From NCBI RefSeq assembly GCF_020144665.1, contig NZ_JAAHBQ010000022.1, forward strand, positions 1-64,000: a DNA stretch of 64,000 nucleotides, written 5' to 3'. Position numbers and translations under genes: made by a program. This stretch comes from Oscillatoria salina IIICB1 (GTDB lineage: Bacteria > Cyanobacteriota > Cyanobacteriia > Cyanobacteriales > SIO1D9). The notes under the pieces were generated by a model that worked only from the letters and a program-made list of their open reading frames with translations, made no database searches and was not told where the DNA came from. This document shows positions 174 to 8,222 of this stretch, piece after piece (the stretch's first letter is position 1; each line of letters starts with the position of its first letter).

Positions 174-1115
174 TTAATTCGCAGAAGCGATCGCTTGTTG
201 TCCTGGCTGGGAATTTGCAAAACCTAAAAATGCTTGTACTTGGGGAGATGCGGGTTGCTGGTAAACATAGGCTAGGTTGCGTTGATAAGGATAGTTAACA
301 GCTTGGGGTGTTATACCATCAACTGGTACTACTTGTACTGTACTTTGATTCGCAGCTTGGGCGTAAGTTGCATAACCGATTCCGTTTTCGCCTAATGCTT
401 GAAATAAAGGTGTCGTCGCATCTCGGTCTAAAGTGGTAAAGTTAGCACCATTACCAAAGTTACCACCATTTAGCACTAATTCTTGAAAAGCTTGGCGAGT
501 GCCACTAACTGGAGGACGATTAATTACTTGAATGGTTCCGGAAGCAGTTCTACCTACTGCTGACCAATCGGTAATTTGTCCTTGAAAAATTTTAACAACT
601 TGTTCTTGAGTTAAACCACCTCGGAGAGGATTAGCAATTCCCACAACGATCGCGATCGCGTCTTGGGCTACGGGAACTGCTGTTAAACCTGTATTTTTTT
701 CTTGAGGTGTTAAAGGACGTGAAATAGCTGCTAAATCGGCACTTCTTGACTGTACAGCTTCGATACCTTTTTCTGTTCCACCTGCTAAGGTAACAATTCT
801 CGTATTAGGAAATTGTTGCTCGAAACTATTTTTTAGTGCCTGATTAATTTGTACCATACTTGTTGAACCTTCGATGCGAATTGTGGTTCCTGCTGGTACG
901 TTATTCGGTGGAGTAAATTCGTTTGTGGGTGCGTCGGGAGAACTATTCGTAGTTACTGGTTGATTGTTTGCTGGATCGAGATTTTCGTTATTGTTTCCGC
1001 CAATTAATCCTTGTATTCCTCCAGATTTAGTAAACCACCAATAGCCGCCGCCAAGTAAGGCTAAGGTGATAATTAAAGCTAAAATTAAGGGTATGGTTTC
1101 GTTTTTTTGGGACAT
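174..1115 (-). CDS. PstS-like phosphate-type substrate-binding protein, membrane-anchored
   Basis: This is a 313-residue protein with an N-terminal membrane anchor (about residues 9-27), an Asn/Pro-rich linker (about 36-75) and a PstS/SphX-type periplasmic binding domain (about 78-313). The ligand-contact type motifs GSTSM and VSGTRQAF fit oxyanion binding, most likely phosphate. The ATG is at 1115. No lipobox or cleavable signal peptide is evident, so the anchor is probably retained. The first residues match the anchors of the next two binding proteins. The gene is last in a minus-strand run behind a Ser/Thr kinase, with no PstC, PstA or PstB nearby, so a sensory role is as plausible as transport. 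Confidence 0.8.
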   Translation of the reverse strand: MSQKNETIPLILALIITLALLGGGYWWFTKSGGIQGLIGGNNNENLDPANNQPVTTNSSPDAPTNEFTPPNNVPAGTTIRIEGSTSMVQINQALKNSFEQQFPNTRIVTLAGGTEKGIEAVQSRSADLAAISRPLTPQEKNTGLTAVPVAQDAIAIVVGIANPLRGGLTQEQVVKIFQGQITDWSAVGRTASGTIQVINRPPVSGTRQAFQELVLNGGNFGNGANFTTLDRDATTPLFQALGENGIGYATYAQAANQSTVQVVPVDGITPQAVNYPYQRNLAYVYQQPASPQVQAFLGFANSQPGQQAIASAN

Positions 1116-1233
1116 GGTGATTTATTTGTAACCACTGATAAACGCAGATAAATGCAGATTTATTTATCTGAAAATTTTCGGCGATATTTTTGATTAATGT
1201 AAGTTAAAAGTGAGAATTTTAACTAATGTTTAT

Positions 1234-2292
1234 TTAGCGAATTCTGACGAATCCGGCTTCCTCGATTAGCTGTTGACCTTGATTGCTTAGTAATAAGTTA
1301 GCATAGGTAATGCCAGCTTGTTCGTCAACGCTACCATCTTGTTTAACAATGACAAATAGTCTTCTAGTAATGGGATATTCTCCATTTTGAAAAGCTGCTG
1401 AATTTAACTGATTTCGTCTGTTAGGGCATTCATCAAGAGGTACGAATGGTTTTTGGTAGGGAGCCACAAATTCGTCGCTTCTACGTCCAATTGGGAGGGT
1501 TTTGATAGTACATTGAGGAACGACTTCGGGTGCGGAAGCAAAATAAATTCCGCCCGGATTTTCCGCAACTTTTCTTAAAGCTTCTGTGGTTGTAGAAACA
1601 AGTTCAATATTAGCAGCAAATTCTGCGCCATTTAAGACATTTTCGACAAAAAATTCGCTCGTGCCTCCTGCTTCTACAGGTCGAGAATAAGCAATAATCG
1701 GAATACTGTTACCACCAATTTGATTCCAATTAGTAATTTTGCCTGTATAAATATCTTGAAGCTGAGAAATAGTGATTCCGGGAATTGTTAAATCGGGATG
1801 AGTAGCGATCGCAATTCCATCGATGGCTACGGGAATTTCTTTCAAGCTAAAACTGCGTGTTTGCGCTTTTTCATATTCTTCCTCTTTTAGCGATCGCGAA
1901 GATTGAGAAAATGCTAGTTGATTATTTAATAACATTTTAATCCCCGTACCAGAACCGGGCGCACCACTGGTAGGATCGGTATAGCGTAAGTCAAACTTAG
2001 GCCAAACAGTTTGGATTGCTGGATCTACTTCTTTACGAATTGTTGCCCAGGTTGTACTACCACCATAGCTAAATAAGCCGGAAGGTACATTTTCTACTTC
2101 GGCAAAGGTATCTACACTTGCTGTTGTTGCTGCTTCAATCTGAGAGTTATTGGCGGTTTGGTTATTATCTTGAGAATTATCCTGACTCAGATTAAATCCA
2201 CCTCGATTAAACAGCCAAAAACCACCACCTAATAAAGCTACTGTAATCGCTAAAGTTAAAATTAAGGTTAAGGTTTCGTTTTTTTGTGACAT
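1234..2292 (-). CDS. PstS-like substrate-binding protein, membrane-anchored
   Basis: A 352-residue relative of the downstream protein. The N-terminus (MSQKNET then a hydrophobic stretch to about residue 28) is nearly identical to the other two binding proteins in this run. An Asn/Gln/Ser linker is followed by a type 2 periplasmic binding domain (about 70-352) with GGSTTW near its start and a phosphate-like GSGTGI segment. Spacing to the following gene is 118 bp and to the preceding one 29 bp, consistent with cotranscription. The ligand cannot be fixed from sequence. The family is best known for phosphate, but the binding residues differ enough that another oxyanion is possible. Confidence 0.78.
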   Translation of the reverse strand: MSQKNETLTLILTLAITVALLGGGFWLFNRGGFNLSQDNSQDNNQTANNSQIEAATTASVDTFAEVENVPSGLFSYGGSTTWATIRKEVDPAIQTVWPKFDLRYTDPTSGAPGSGTGIKMLLNNQLAFSQSSRSLKEEEYEKAQTRSFSLKEIPVAIDGIAIATHPDLTIPGITISQLQDIYTGKITNWNQIGGNSIPIIAYSRPVEAGGTSEFFVENVLNGAEFAANIELVSTTTEALRKVAENPGGIYFASAPEVVPQCTIKTLPIGRRSDEFVAPYQKPFVPLDECPNRRNQLNSAAFQNGEYPITRRLFVIVKQDGSVDEQAGITYANLLLSNQGQQLIEEAGFVRIR

Positions 2293-2321
2293 AGAAGCTG
2301 CAAATATCTCCTGCTTCTACT

Positions 2322-3731
2322 TTAAGGTATTGGCACGAATTCATAGCCAAAAGAAGTGCGCGATCCTGGTTGAATAGTTACTAATTGTACAGCTTGGTTG
2401 CGATCGCCAGAACTCAAAAAGCGAATTTTGCCTGATGCACCGTTGGCTTCAAAGTTACCAGAAGAAAGGGTTTGTTGTAAGCCACTACGACTGGGATTAG
2501 GTTGTAAACCAGCGATTAAGGCTTGGCTAGCATCATAAGCTAAAGCGGTACGCCAGTTAACTTCTCCTCCCCATAATTTTCCCGCCGTTTGGGGAAATTC
2601 AGCATCGGGATCGGCAAGAATATGCCAAGGTACTGCTAAAATCATCCCAACGGCGTCAGAGCGACCAATTTGTAAGGTTTTAACTTTGTAAGCACTATCT
2701 CCAGCTAATAATGGTAAGCGTTTATCGTTAACTTGGACTACTTGTAAAGCTTGGTCGAGAGTAGCAGAATTCGGTGCTAACATTAAAACTTCTGCGTTTT
2801 TGGCGATCGCGTCGTTCACCGCATTGGCAGAATTAAAGTTATTATCGGCAAAGTTATATTCAGCAACTACCTCTCCACCGTCACCAAATAAGGCGGTTGT
2901 ATATTCATTTTTGAGAGATTTACTGTAACTACTCTCTGAGTTGAAAAAGACGGCTGCTTTTTGTAAGTTTAATTCGTTGACTGTATAGCGAGAAAGGGCG
3001 CTACCTGCAAAGCGATCGCTAGGAACTGTCCGAAAGATATAATTGCCTAGAGTAGAAAGTTCTACTGATGTGGATGTCGGCGAAATCATTACCAATTTAT
3101 TTGCTTGATAAATTTCGGCTGCGGCTAAACTAACTGCGCTGCCAAAATGACCGATAACTCCTAAAATATCAGAGCGATCGATAAATTCTTCAGCTAATTG
3201 TTTGGCAATTTCAGGATTATTATCATCGTTAGCAATTAAAATTTTTAGAGGAATACCATTAATTCCTCCTACTTGATTGATTTCTTGTTGCGCTTGGGCT
3301 ACTCCCCGCAGCATTTCTTGGGCGGCATCAATTTCTTCACCGATAGGCATTGAAGCAACAATTGTGTATGATTTATTTTTCCCAATCCGAGCATTATTCA
3401 GATAAATTAGGGCTTCTGGATCGTTGGGTTTTTCTTTGAGAGATGCTTGTAAATTCTTAATTGCTTCAGGATAGTTATCTTTAGCGATCGCTGCTGTCGC
3501 ATTCACTTTTTCCTGAGTACCATCCCCAGGAATTAAAACTTTTTCGCCCTCACTAATTCTTGCTGACAAACTTTTTTTCGATTCAGATAGATTTATTGTT
3601 TCTCTTGCATTATTCTCTGAAGTTGAGTTAATAAATCTACCATTAGTAAACCACCAAATCCCCCCCGCAACTAAACCCAAAGTAATCAATAGGGAGATTA
3701 ACAAAAGTTTTGTTTCATTTTGCTGATTCAT
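2322..3731 (-). CDS. Membrane-anchored branched-chain amino acid type (Peripla_BP_6) binding protein
   Basis: A 469-residue protein. It opens with MNQQNET and a hydrophobic anchor (about 9-28) like the two PstS-like proteins downstream. A short TPR-like helix pair (about 75-115, with NYPEAIKNL and PNDPEALIYL) comes next, then a Leu/Ile/Val-binding-protein-type domain (about 120-469) with GVIGHFGSA and MISPTSTSVEL. This family binds amino acids, urea or amides and also occurs as a sensory domain. The mix of an LIV-type and two PstS-type domains on one anchor type, without permease genes, argues against an ordinary ABC importer. Confidence 0.78.
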   Translation of the reverse strand: MNQQNETKLLLISLLITLGLVAGGIWWFTNGRFINSTSENNARETINLSESKKSLSARISEGEKVLIPGDGTQEKVNATAAIAKDNYPEAIKNLQASLKEKPNDPEALIYLNNARIGKNKSYTIVASMPIGEEIDAAQEMLRGVAQAQQEINQVGGINGIPLKILIANDDNNPEIAKQLAEEFIDRSDILGVIGHFGSAVSLAAAEIYQANKLVMISPTSTSVELSTLGNYIFRTVPSDRFAGSALSRYTVNELNLQKAAVFFNSESSYSKSLKNEYTTALFGDGGEVVAEYNFADNNFNSANAVNDAIAKNAEVLMLAPNSATLDQALQVVQVNDKRLPLLAGDSAYKVKTLQIGRSDAVGMILAVPWHILADPDAEFPQTAGKLWGGEVNWRTALAYDASQALIAGLQPNPSRSGLQQTLSSGNFEANGASGKIRFLSSGDRNQAVQLVTIQPGSRTSFGYEFVPIP

Positions 3732-3803
3732 TTTTAGTTATTTAATAACCACCTAAATTTATTAGTTAGCAAGTCCCTGCATTTACTAGTTATCAGTTAC
3801 CAG

Positions 3804-5315
3804 TTAAATCATTGCCGATAGTAATTTATAAATTAAACGGAAAAGGGCTGTAACTGCAACTGTTGCTGCTGCGGTAAAAATTCCTGCTATCAGCACAAAT
3901 TGAATCCCAAAACCGCCTCGCAGGCCGGGAATTAACATCAATGCTAAAGTAATAATGGCAATAATTGGTAAATCTTTTCCTTCAATTATGCGGCGATATT
4001 GCACAAAAATTAATCCGCCGACAATTGCACCTAATAATCCGATACTAATTCCTGGAGAAGGTAATAAACTTCCTAAAGCAAAAAATAATAACCCCGCTTC
4101 AAATCCTGTAAAAGCGGCGCTAAGAAGGATGTCTAGTAAAGAAAATCGTCGTCGTGCAGGTGTGCCACTAGGTTGCTGCTGAATTCTTCCTTGTTGCTGA
4201 GACGGAGGTACTGGGGAAGATGCTTGTGAGGGGTTGACAGATTGAGGAGTTTGTGGTAAGTTGCCTGATTGAACGGTAGCTGCTTGGGGAGAGGGATTAA
4301 CTACGGCTGTTGATTGGGCAGGATTAGGTGAAGGTTGTGGTGGTAGTGGAGTGGGAGTTATCGAGTGATTTTGGAGAGCATCAATAACTTCTTGGGCGGA
4401 GGAGTAGCGATCGCTGGGATTATGTTGTAACATCCGATCGAAAATCTCAGCAAGAGAGTCACTAACGCCCGGAGCCTGCGATCGCCAATTCCAGCGATCG
4501 TCATGGTAAAGTTCTTCAAAATCCTTCCCCGTCAGTAAATTTACGCAAGTAGCCGCCAGTGCATACAAATCCGTCGAAGGATAGACGCGAGAGCCAATCA
4601 TTTGTTCTGGCGGAGCAAAACCCATCGAAAAAATGCCCGTAGAGCGTGAAGGTGGGGGAGTACCTGCACCTGCGGTAACTTGCTTCACAGCCCCAAAATC
4701 GAGGAGATACAAACGCCCGGAGCGATCGCGCATAATATTAGACGGTTTAATATCTCGATGGATCGAATTATGTTCGTGGACAAACTGAAGTACATTAAGA
4801 ATCGACTCTAACACCTCACGAACTTCAGCTTCGCTCAACTGTCCTTTTGCTTGTAATTCTTTTTCTAAATCTTGTCCATCGATAAATTGCTGTACCAAAT
4901 AGAAAAATTGGTTTTCCGAGTTAGCTGCACCATTACCCACAATCAAAGGGAAAAAAGCGTACAGATCGGGAATTTGAGGATGTTCGCTTCCCAACCTTTC
5001 TAAAACCTCAGCTTCGCGAGAAAACAAATTTTGGGCAATTTCCAACTGACGAGAACTTAAATTTCCTGCTGGCTGAAACTGCTTCACCACACAAAAGCGC
5101 ATCGTCGGAGTATAGCGATCGCGTGCTAGAAATGCTGCACCAAAGCCACCTCTACCCAACAAACGAGAAGGAAGATAGCGCCCTGCCAAAATTAAAGGCA
5201 TTCCACAACTAGTGCAATATTTCTGCTGTGCTGTTTTCAGCTTCGACTCATCGTCAAGATCGCTAAAGTTATTTAGAGGTTTCGAACAGCCAGGACGGGT
5301 GCAAATAATTTCCAT
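3804..5315 (-). CDS. Zinc-ribbon serine/threonine protein kinase with C-terminal membrane domain
   Basis: The ATG at 5315 gives 503 residues; a TTG 15 bp upstream would extend it without support. Cys5, Cys10, Cys34 and Cys37 form a zinc-ribbon-like head. The Hanks-type kinase domain (about 48-315) is complete: glycine loop GRGGFG, VVK lysine, HRDIKPSN catalytic loop, LDFG, and APPEQ before the activation-segment end. A Pro/Gln-rich linker (about 320-390) leads to roughly four membrane segments. It should be an active membrane kinase facing the cytoplasm. The membrane part has no large external domain, and the following three genes encode anchored solute-binding proteins, so these may act as its sensors (inference). 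The gap to the next gene is 72 bp. Confidence 0.9.
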   Translation of the reverse strand: MEIICTRPGCSKPLNNFSDLDDESKLKTAQQKYCTSCGMPLILAGRYLPSRLLGRGGFGAAFLARDRYTPTMRFCVVKQFQPAGNLSSRQLEIAQNLFSREAEVLERLGSEHPQIPDLYAFFPLIVGNGAANSENQFFYLVQQFIDGQDLEKELQAKGQLSEAEVREVLESILNVLQFVHEHNSIHRDIKPSNIMRDRSGRLYLLDFGAVKQVTAGAGTPPPSRSTGIFSMGFAPPEQMIGSRVYPSTDLYALAATCVNLLTGKDFEELYHDDRWNWRSQAPGVSDSLAEIFDRMLQHNPSDRYSSAQEVIDALQNHSITPTPLPPQPSPNPAQSTAVVNPSPQAATVQSGNLPQTPQSVNPSQASSPVPPSQQQGRIQQQPSGTPARRRFSLLDILLSAAFTGFEAGLLFFALGSLLPSPGISIGLLGAIVGGLIFVQYRRIIEGKDLPIIAIITLALMLIPGLRGGFGIQFVLIAGIFTAAATVAVTALFRLIYKLLSAMI

Positions 5316-5391
5316 AATTGTTGCAAACAAGGCTCACTCACCAGTCTGCCATAATTTTCTGTTTGCACTATAACAGGTGACTTACTCCCAG

Positions 5392-6417
5392 CTAAGTCAA
5401 CTCTTGCTCTTGATTAGCTTGTTCTTGATTGGGAGTAGTAGCTTTAACTTTAGAAGGCGATCGCGACGCATTCAACTCGATCCCGGTATACCATCCCTGA
5501 GTAGCAAACTTCGGCAAAATTTCCTGGCTAAAAGCTTCTGCGGCTTTAGAGCGGTAACGACTAGGATTAATAATCACGTGCAAAATACGTTTAATTACCA
5601 GATCGTCAAATTGAGCGCGGTGCAAAATTCCCATCTGCAACTCTTTTTCGATCGCCGAAATCGAGACAAAAGCTGCTCCCAGTCCTGATTGGACAGCATT
5701 TTTAATCGCCTCAATCGAGTTTAACTCCATCTCAATTTTCAACCGCTTCGGATCGATATCCCAGCGACTCAACACCCCATCAATTACTTTGCGGATTGTC
5801 GATTGAGAATCCAGAGCAATAAACTGCAATTTATAAAGGTCTTCTTTTTGAATTTTGTCAACCTGAGCAAACTGATGAGTCACAGGCAAAATTAGCGCCA
5901 ACTCATCTTCAGCATAAGGAATAACATCTAAAACATCTTGCAATTCTGGGGGTACTTCCCCACCAATAATCGCCAAATCCACTTGTCCATTTGCCACACT
6001 CCAAGAAGTGCGCCTTGTCGAATGAACTTGTAGTTGTACCGACACATCAGGATACAATTGGCGAAACAAACCGATCATCCGAGGCAAAAAATAAGTTCCG
6101 GTAGTTTGGGATGCGCCGACGATCAGCGTACCGCCTTGAAGATTTTGCAAATCCTCCAAAGCTCGGCAGGTTTCCTGACAAAGAGTGATAACTTTTTCCC
6201 CATAATTGAGGAGTAAGTGACCTGCTTCAGTTAGCTGCGCCCTGCGTCCTCCTCGATCGAATAAAGGTACATTAAGTTGTCTTTCCAAGTTTTGTACTTG
6301 CAGGCTAACTGCTGGTTGGGATACATAAAGGCTATCAGCAGCACGTTTAAAACTCCCCTCAGCAGCGATCGCTTTGAGTATCCGGAGTTGATCGAGAGTA
6401 AAAGGGATATCAGACAT
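5392..6417 (-). CDS. rbcR: LysR-family transcriptional regulator RbcR (Ycf30)
   Basis: A 341-residue LysR regulator with an N-terminal winged helix-turn-helix (about 1-65; [19 protein letters not shown]) and an effector-binding domain (about 95-300). The opening and the conserved [20 protein letters not shown] stretch match the cyanobacterial/plastid RbcR (Ycf30) group rather than NdhR/CcmR. Members control Rubisco and carbon-fixation genes in response to metabolites. The C-terminal tail after about residue 310 is Gln/Asn-rich and probably disordered. It is divergent from the NnrU-like gene and close to the ndhF1-ndhD1 pair. Like most LysR genes it may regulate itself from the shared intergenic region. 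Confidence 0.85.
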
Positions 6418-7880: not shown

Positions 7881-8222
7881 ATGCTGGTTTCTGTAAGCGA
7901 GCGGAACTTTTCCAAAGAGGTTTTAGAATCGAACCAGCCAGTGCTGGTTCACTTTTGGACACCTTGGTGTGGTTTATGTAAAAGAATTAACCCTTTATTG
8001 CATCAATTTCAGTTGGAATGGGAAGGACAAGTTAAAGTAGTGGGGATCAATCCCGACGAAAACTTAAAACTAGCTTCTCAATATCGTCTCACCAGTTTAC
8101 CAACATTGCTAATGTTCGATCGCGGAGCAGTAGTAGATCGTATTGAAGGCTTTCAGGGACGGGAGGAACTCAAACGGAACTTAGATAAACTAATGGTTAG
8201 TTTGCTACCAAGTTCTGCTTGA
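7881..8222 (+). CDS. Thioredoxin-like protein with atypical WCGLC active site
   Basis: A complete 113-residue thioredoxin fold. The redox motif reads TPWCGLCKR, so the usual WCGPC proline is replaced by leucine. The cis-proline segment SLPTLLMF is present. The Pro-to-Leu change is expected to alter the redox potential or partner range relative to standard TrxA. There is no signal peptide, so it should act in the cytosol. It stands alone downstream of a repeat array and is followed by a strong terminator at 8315. Its specific partner is unknown. Confidence 0.85.
   Translation: MLVSVSERNFSKEVLESNQPVLVHFWTPWCGLCKRINPLLHQFQLEWEGQVKVVGINPDENLKLASQYRLTSLPTLLMFDRGAVVDRIEGFQGREELKRNLDKLMVSLLPSSA

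Follow-up and report, generated by a model that had tools for sequence, protein, structure and literature searches.

A gene for a serine/threonine kinase that is followed by three genes for solute-binding proteins (SBPs), with no transporter gene beside them, raises the question of what these binding proteins serve. The window, i.e., the whole 64,000-nt stretch analysed here, opens at one end of contig 22 in a 5.96-Mb cyanobacterial draft genome, and the ORF list places the four genes consecutively on the minus strand at positions 174–5315 (Table 1). Read from right to left, the order is kinase, LIV-type SBP, PST2 and PST1, with intergenic gaps of 72 bp (kinase/LIV-type SBP), 29 bp (LIV-type SBP/PST2) and 118 bp (PST2/PST1), in agreement with the preliminary description of this DNA. 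The kinase was taken to start at the ATG at 5315; the mechanical ORF reaches a TTG at 5330. As had been stated, no ORF for an ABC permease or ATPase adjoins the locus, a result that covers the 12 kb to its right; to its left, only 173 bp separate PST1 from the contig end. The RbcR-type LysR gene lies within 1.2 kb of the kinase in 20 of the 21 loci of the same kinase with sufficient upstream sequence, and is probably a context marker that stands outside the receptor.

Table 1. Coordinates and predicted parts of the features in and around the kinase–SBP locus
Feature	Length	Position	Strand	Basis	Parts (residues)
4-Cys-prefix Ser/Thr (Hanks-type) kinase	503 aa	3804..5315	(-)	Pfam Pkinase, NCBIfam NF045510	Cys prefix 5-37; kinase domain ~46-315; Pro/Gln-rich linker ~316-390; about four predicted C-terminal membrane helices ~393-502
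Putatively membrane-anchored type I (LIV/HAAT-like) SBP	469 aa	2322..3731	(-)	Pfam Peripla_BP_6, structure model	tag MNQQNET; one predicted TM ~8-28; linker; helical hairpin stalk 73-116; Peripla_BP_6 120-469
Putatively membrane-anchored type II (PstS-like) SBP, PST2	352 aa	1234..2292	(-)	Pfam PBP_like_2	tag MSQKNET; one predicted TM; PBP_like_2 75-337
Putatively membrane-anchored PstS-like SBP, PST1	313 aa	174..1115	(-)	Pfam PBP_like_2, Sll0540 relative	tag MSQKNET; one predicted TM; PBP_like_2 74-300
RbcR-type LysR regulator, directly upstream of kinase		5392..6417	(-)	conserved adjacency	
Thioredoxin-like ORF, near kinase locus		7881-8222		ORF list	

The kinase domain was matched by Pfam Pkinase (E 3e-33) and is preceded by an N-terminus that scores 45.1 bits against NCBIfam NF045510 ("4Cys_prefix_kin"; curated cut-off 24). 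In an alignment of 13 orthologues, K78, E101, HRDIKPSN, DFG and the APE-like PPEQ were invariant in all 13, as were the cysteines C5, C10, C34 and C37. Judged from these residues, the active site is intact, as previously proposed. For the Cys-rich N-terminus, earlier labelled "zinc-ribbon", "4-Cys prefix" is the better name, and metal binding is putative. A resembling Cys-rich N-terminus, that of SpkB, is reported as a redox target of thioredoxin (PMC10651672). The C-terminus is hydrophobic by hydropathy and was modelled by AlphaFold as four helices with low confidence (pLDDT 61 for the kinase, too weak for conclusions on the Cys prefix or on how the membrane helices pack), which is consistent with the claim that the kinase ends in membrane helices and has no external domain. 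No extracytoplasmic domain was found in it, the putative helices being joined by short loops, and no TPR domain was matched by Pfam.

Pfam assigned two of the SBPs to PBP_like_2 (E 1e-35 and 9e-30) and one to Peripla_BP_6 (1e-31), corresponding to the two PstS-type proteins and the one LIV-type protein recognised earlier. The LIV-type SBP was modelled as a complete type I SBP atop a helical stalk (pLDDT 88.5), and its closest solved structures are amino-acid binders: 3td9, the best match (Z 40, rmsd 2.8, 334 aligned), and 3ip5 (Z 39, rmsd 3.0, 339 aligned). S198, T221 and D345, which are invariant or nearly so in an alignment of 18 relatives, correspond in leucine-binding protein to S79, T102 and E226, residues that hold the alpha-carboxylate and alpha-amino groups of its ligand. 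This match makes an alpha-amino acid the probable ligand of the LIV-type SBP. PST1 is closely related to Synechocystis Sll0540 of the PstS family (PDB 9l8j; E 9e-79 across 240 residues), of which the solved chain comprises the soluble domain only. It keeps an SGT motif and its ligand is probably phosphate; Sll0540-like proteins are listed as phosphate-binding in Nodularia (PMC3610870). Profile matches of PST2 to 9l8j and 4q8r indicate a more distant relation than that of PST1, and an oxyanion or related ligand is predicted. No lipobox cysteine was found near the N-terminus of any of the three window SBPs.

The common start of the three proteins, already pointed out in the preliminary description, was borne out. 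PST1 and PST2 begin with MSQKNET and the LIV-type SBP with MNQQNET, and in each the tag is followed by one hydrophobic segment, the three endings being GGYWWF, GGFWLF and GGIWWF. In 60 genomes, namely this one and those of 59 further species in its order, the pattern ATGWSNCARAARAAYGARACN (M-S-Q-K-N-E-T) gave 32 exact matches, versus 0 for the reversed pattern. Comparison of coordinates placed 30 of the 32 at the start of a LIV, PST2 or PST1 gene; the other two are out of frame, immediately 5′ of the LIV gene in genomes G036 and G059. The consensus MSQKNETxxLvLaLLITlGL is common to all three families despite the differing LIV and PstS folds, and over the first 28 residues their consensus sequences are almost the same. 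Between the three window SBP genes, identical residues are specified by different codons in 8/19, 10/13 and 8/12 cases, ruling out recent copying of the gene starts; the tag is therefore maintained by selection.

Conserved synteny, which had been suggested as a check, was found in the same 60 genomes. With the kinase called present at E ≤ 1e-70 and the 25 best candidates per genome scored, 46 of the 60 genomes carry it. A tagged-family SBP lies downstream of the kinase, on the same strand and within 6 kb, in 22 of these 46 genomes (often 20–100 bp apart), and kinase and LIV-type SBP form one ORF in 4 of the 46. Records with the operon include Nostoc, Aphanothece, Scytonematopsis, Anabaenopsis and Hassallia. 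The downstream set varies among LIV, PST2, LIV plus PST2, two PST2, two LIV, and PST1 (G027); PST1 adjoins the kinase in only 2 of 24 cases. No SBP adjoins or is fused to the kinase in 23 of the 46 kinase-bearing genomes, and most genomes that have the kinase and no adjacent SBP encode SBPs of these families elsewhere. The SBP families are present in 44/46 kinase-bearing versus 8/14 kinase-negative genomes (Fisher p 0.0013, kinship ignored), so that, with 25 candidates per genome scored, 8 of the 14 genomes lacking a detected kinase still carry SBPs. The closest LIV relatives, from Microcoleus/Tychonema (62–64% identity), stand alone near ctaA/ctaB-like genes, and no ABC permease was recognised among their neighbouring ORFs. 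In a wider sample of the phylum, the kinase was detected in 42 of 146 genomes.

The strongest support for an SBP as the putative receptor domain of the kinase comes from kinase–TM–SBP fusions. Those with Peripla_BP_6 are 740–838 aa long and are of three types: L140, L141 and L155 combine a kinase 48–60% identical to the window kinase with a more distant SBP; L025, L057, L060, L066 and L067 combine a distant kinase with an SBP 53–61% identical to the window LIV-type SBP; and L090 and L091 contain another Cys-prefixed kinase. A further protein, L142, is a kinase–TM–PBP_like_2 fusion whose SBP domain is 63% identical to PST2. As to whether the LIV stalk might be a true TPR, a weak TPR_2 match was obtained, in L140 only. 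Because a single TM separates the cytoplasmic kinase from the SBP, the fused SBP domain would lie outside the cytoplasm. In the kinase-domain tree, in which deep branches are weak and from which L142 was left out by the motif filter (loop HRDIKLSN), the LIV fusions fall in three places and the well-supported (starred) branches require no fewer than two changes, pointing to at least two origins of the LIV-type fusion. Within the window kinase's own family, the four-helix tail of split members is replaced in fused ones by one TM and an SBP. No other finding speaks as strongly as this exchange for the tail as the possible entry point of SBP input. Members of these SBP families are linked via one TM to other effector domains, too, namely CHAT (L143, L149, L087), caspase (L144), caspase-nSTAND-WD40 (L088) and DUF4912 (L145, L152, L154), and the families therefore serve as general sensor modules in cyanobacteria.

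On this combined evidence, we propose, with a probability of about 0.72, that the four genes encode a nutrient-sensing receptor–kinase complex in which ligand closure of an SBP alters the activity of the cytoplasmic Ser/Thr kinase. An uncleaved N-terminal helix, one per protein, would hold the SBPs in the inner membrane; their MSQKNET tail would face the cytoplasm, and the domain that binds the ligand would lie in the periplasm. The LIV-type SBP would bind an alpha-amino acid, PST1 phosphate, and PST2 an oxyanion or related ligand. Anchor, tail and stalk would contact the C-terminal four-helix membrane domain of the kinase and pass on ligand closure, changing kinase activity, and one kinase would be served by several SBPs. 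The cell would thus probably sense outside nutrients by protein phosphorylation. The earlier suggestion that the binding proteins are receptors of the kinase is largely supported by the conserved linkage, the fusions, the tag and the transporters' own SBPs, described below; the description of these receptors as detachable would suit the split arrangement. More tentatively, and at somewhat under even odds, the MSQKNET tail and anchor helix may form a docking code by which SBPs of different folds act as interchangeable plug-in subunits on a single kinase membrane platform; several nutrients would then be integrated by one kinase, even via SBPs encoded away from it.

Alternatively, the anchored SBPs could be extra subunits for ABC permeases encoded elsewhere, such as those of Pst or Liv/Urt-type systems, with the kinase as an incidental neighbour or a regulator of transport. 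Orphan SBPs that cooperate with distant permeases are known in general. The SBP domains themselves are ordinary, their best PDB matches being transport SBPs, and the Nodularia listing of Sll0540-like proteins as phosphate-binding (PMC3610870) fits such a role. An SBP fold is present in all three proteins; a cognate permease and ATPase are not adjacent, and none was recognised beside the related loci, which were inspected by ORF starts, length and motif, so membership of an ABC transporter was rejected as far as neighbourhood is concerned. In the same genome, the Pst operon on contig 28 (L082) has its own SBP gene, assigned by gene order and size, and the Liv/Urt-type operon on contig 117 (L162) comprises a BPD_transp_2 permease pair, an SBP-sized ORF and two ATPase-sized ORFs. 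Because both transporters carry their own SBPs, those of the cassette would be superfluous to them, and the use of a distant Pst or Liv permease did not emerge. Of the two findings that had been named as counting against the receptor idea, this one and the lack of a conserved gene neighbourhood, neither was thus obtained. Related SBP domains are, moreover, fused to kinases, CHAT and caspase with no permease part, and one tag spans two different SBP folds. Borrowing of a distant permease by the window SBPs is thus unlikely, as is this explanation as a whole.

Two further explanations concern the kinase itself. It might be under redox control via its four cysteines and independent of the SBPs, the gene order reflecting inheritance as a block next to the rbcR, nnrU-like, thioredoxin and ndhF genes. 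The 4-Cys prefix, the reported SpkB precedent (PMC10651672), the nearby thioredoxin-like ORF and the position beside rbcR in 20/21 loci, regardless of the SBPs downstream, are all in keeping with this. However, the downstream position is taken repeatedly by these SBP families, in changing combinations, and kinase–SBP fusions arose more than once, which makes the explanation rather improbable; redox and ligand control of the kinase could also coexist. The signal might instead run from kinase to SBP, the kinase phosphorylating Ser2 or Thr7 of the MSQKNET tails and so controlling SBP placement, abundance or partner choice. The short, putatively cytoplasmic tail is strongly conserved: Thr7 never varies in the LIV alignment and predominates at its position in each of the three families. 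Some PST2 members, however, read MSQKNEI, without Thr7, and the fused receptors lack the tail yet retain kinase and SBP. We regard tail phosphorylation as very doubtful.

The nearest working parallel of the proposed receptor–kinase complex appears to be GlnH–GlnX–PknG of Mycobacterium/Corynebacterium, an operon of an SBP, a four-TM relay and a Ser/Thr kinase for which amino-acid control has been proposed (PMC6069109, PMC9769921). In both systems a gene for an external SBP stands beside one for an internal Ser/Thr kinase, a likeness seen here in gene order. PknG is soluble and has a TPR domain, whereas the window kinase has hydrophobic C-terminal helices and no TPR match. GlnX is a separate four-TM relay with periplasmic domains, whereas the predicted membrane helices here are the kinase's own and have short loops; no separate four-TM relay ORF was found between the kinase and the three SBPs, up to the contig end 173 bp past PST1. 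A single lipoprotein SBP in that system contrasts with three putatively TM-anchored, commonly tagged SBPs of two folds in the window. Since soluble kinase, separate relay and lipoprotein SBP are all lacking, the window system is not a member of GlnH–GlnX–PknG, even if it probably works like it.

Fused receptors were described in 2005 (BMC Genomics; PMC1262709), where a survey reports a kinase with an ANF-receptor domain in Nostoc PCC 7120 and a kinase with a solute-binding protein in Streptomyces coelicolor. In these, the kinase is joined to an extracellular SBP domain of the same class, but within a single polypeptide, whereas the window system is split into separate genes; the split operon, common anchor tag and multi-SBP set were not found in the part of the survey considered. 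SpkB-type 4-Cys kinases share the Cys-rich extension ahead of a Hanks kinase domain, while linked SBPs and a four-helix tail are not described for SpkB in the part of the source considered (PMC10651672). No SBP domains were found in the portion consulted of a 2007 survey of cyanobacterial kinases (PMC2176072), nor was a description of a split, tagged kinase/SBP operon found in the open-access literature, a scope outside which most subscription journals lie.

Little is known of the signals that activate Hanks-type kinases in bacteria, cyanobacteria among them. A widespread, conserved operon that points to likely receptor subunits and to their ligand class makes the signal of this kinase testable. 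If the proposal is true, placing one N-terminal tag on binding domains of different folds would offer a simple route to a kinase receptor with multiple inputs.

Eighteen PST2-like matches were found in a single genome (G023) of the 60 same-order genomes searched, a large expansion that suggests many SBP-fused sensors; many of these domains sit within ORFs of 550-820 aa. SBP domains are also joined to other modules. At L145, L152 and L154, three inspected loci, the exported N-terminus is a PST1-like SBP domain, followed by a TM and then by repeats of DUF4912, an uncharacterised domain, and the same layout was assigned to L146 and L153 as judged by length. The caspase-like protein at L088 (1847 aa) has the domain order caspase-nSTAND1-WD40-Peripla_BP_6.

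Coordinates of the features described
Feature	Location	Remark
Thioredoxin-like ORF	window 7881-8222	three genes from the 4-Cys kinase
Another kinase/PBP neighbourhood	L080:1398-8022	own genome (contig 33)
Caspase-like (Peptidase_C14) protein	L088:4967-10507	SBP domain C-terminal
Caspase-like (Peptidase_C14) protein	L144:1116-3974	SBP domain C-terminal
Extra out-of-frame MSQKNET start	G036:C87:34941	directly upstream of LIV gene
Extra out-of-frame MSQKNET start	G059:C1:2447083	directly upstream of LIV gene
Three-gene unit	L149:375-4335	CHAT-TM-SBP type protein
Three-gene unit	L150:502-4150	CHAT-TM-SBP type protein
Three-gene unit	L087:7161-11654	CHAT-TM-SBP type protein

The thioredoxin-like ORF is possibly, if speculatively, a redox partner of the 4-Cys kinase; similar ORFs lie near this kinase in several other genomes. 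At L080, a PBP_like_2 protein of 392 aa, which lacks the type of tag seen in the cassette SBPs, lies between two kinases that are similar. At the positions listed for G036 and G059, a LIV gene begins in frame with MSQKNK and is preceded by a second, out-of-frame MSQKNET, as if the tag had undergone duplication plus frameshift.

The three-gene unit comprises an ORF of ~190-225 aa (no Pfam match in L149), a DUF1822-like protein and the CHAT-TM-SBP type protein, and looks like a separate sensor-effector system built on the SBP families of the cassette.
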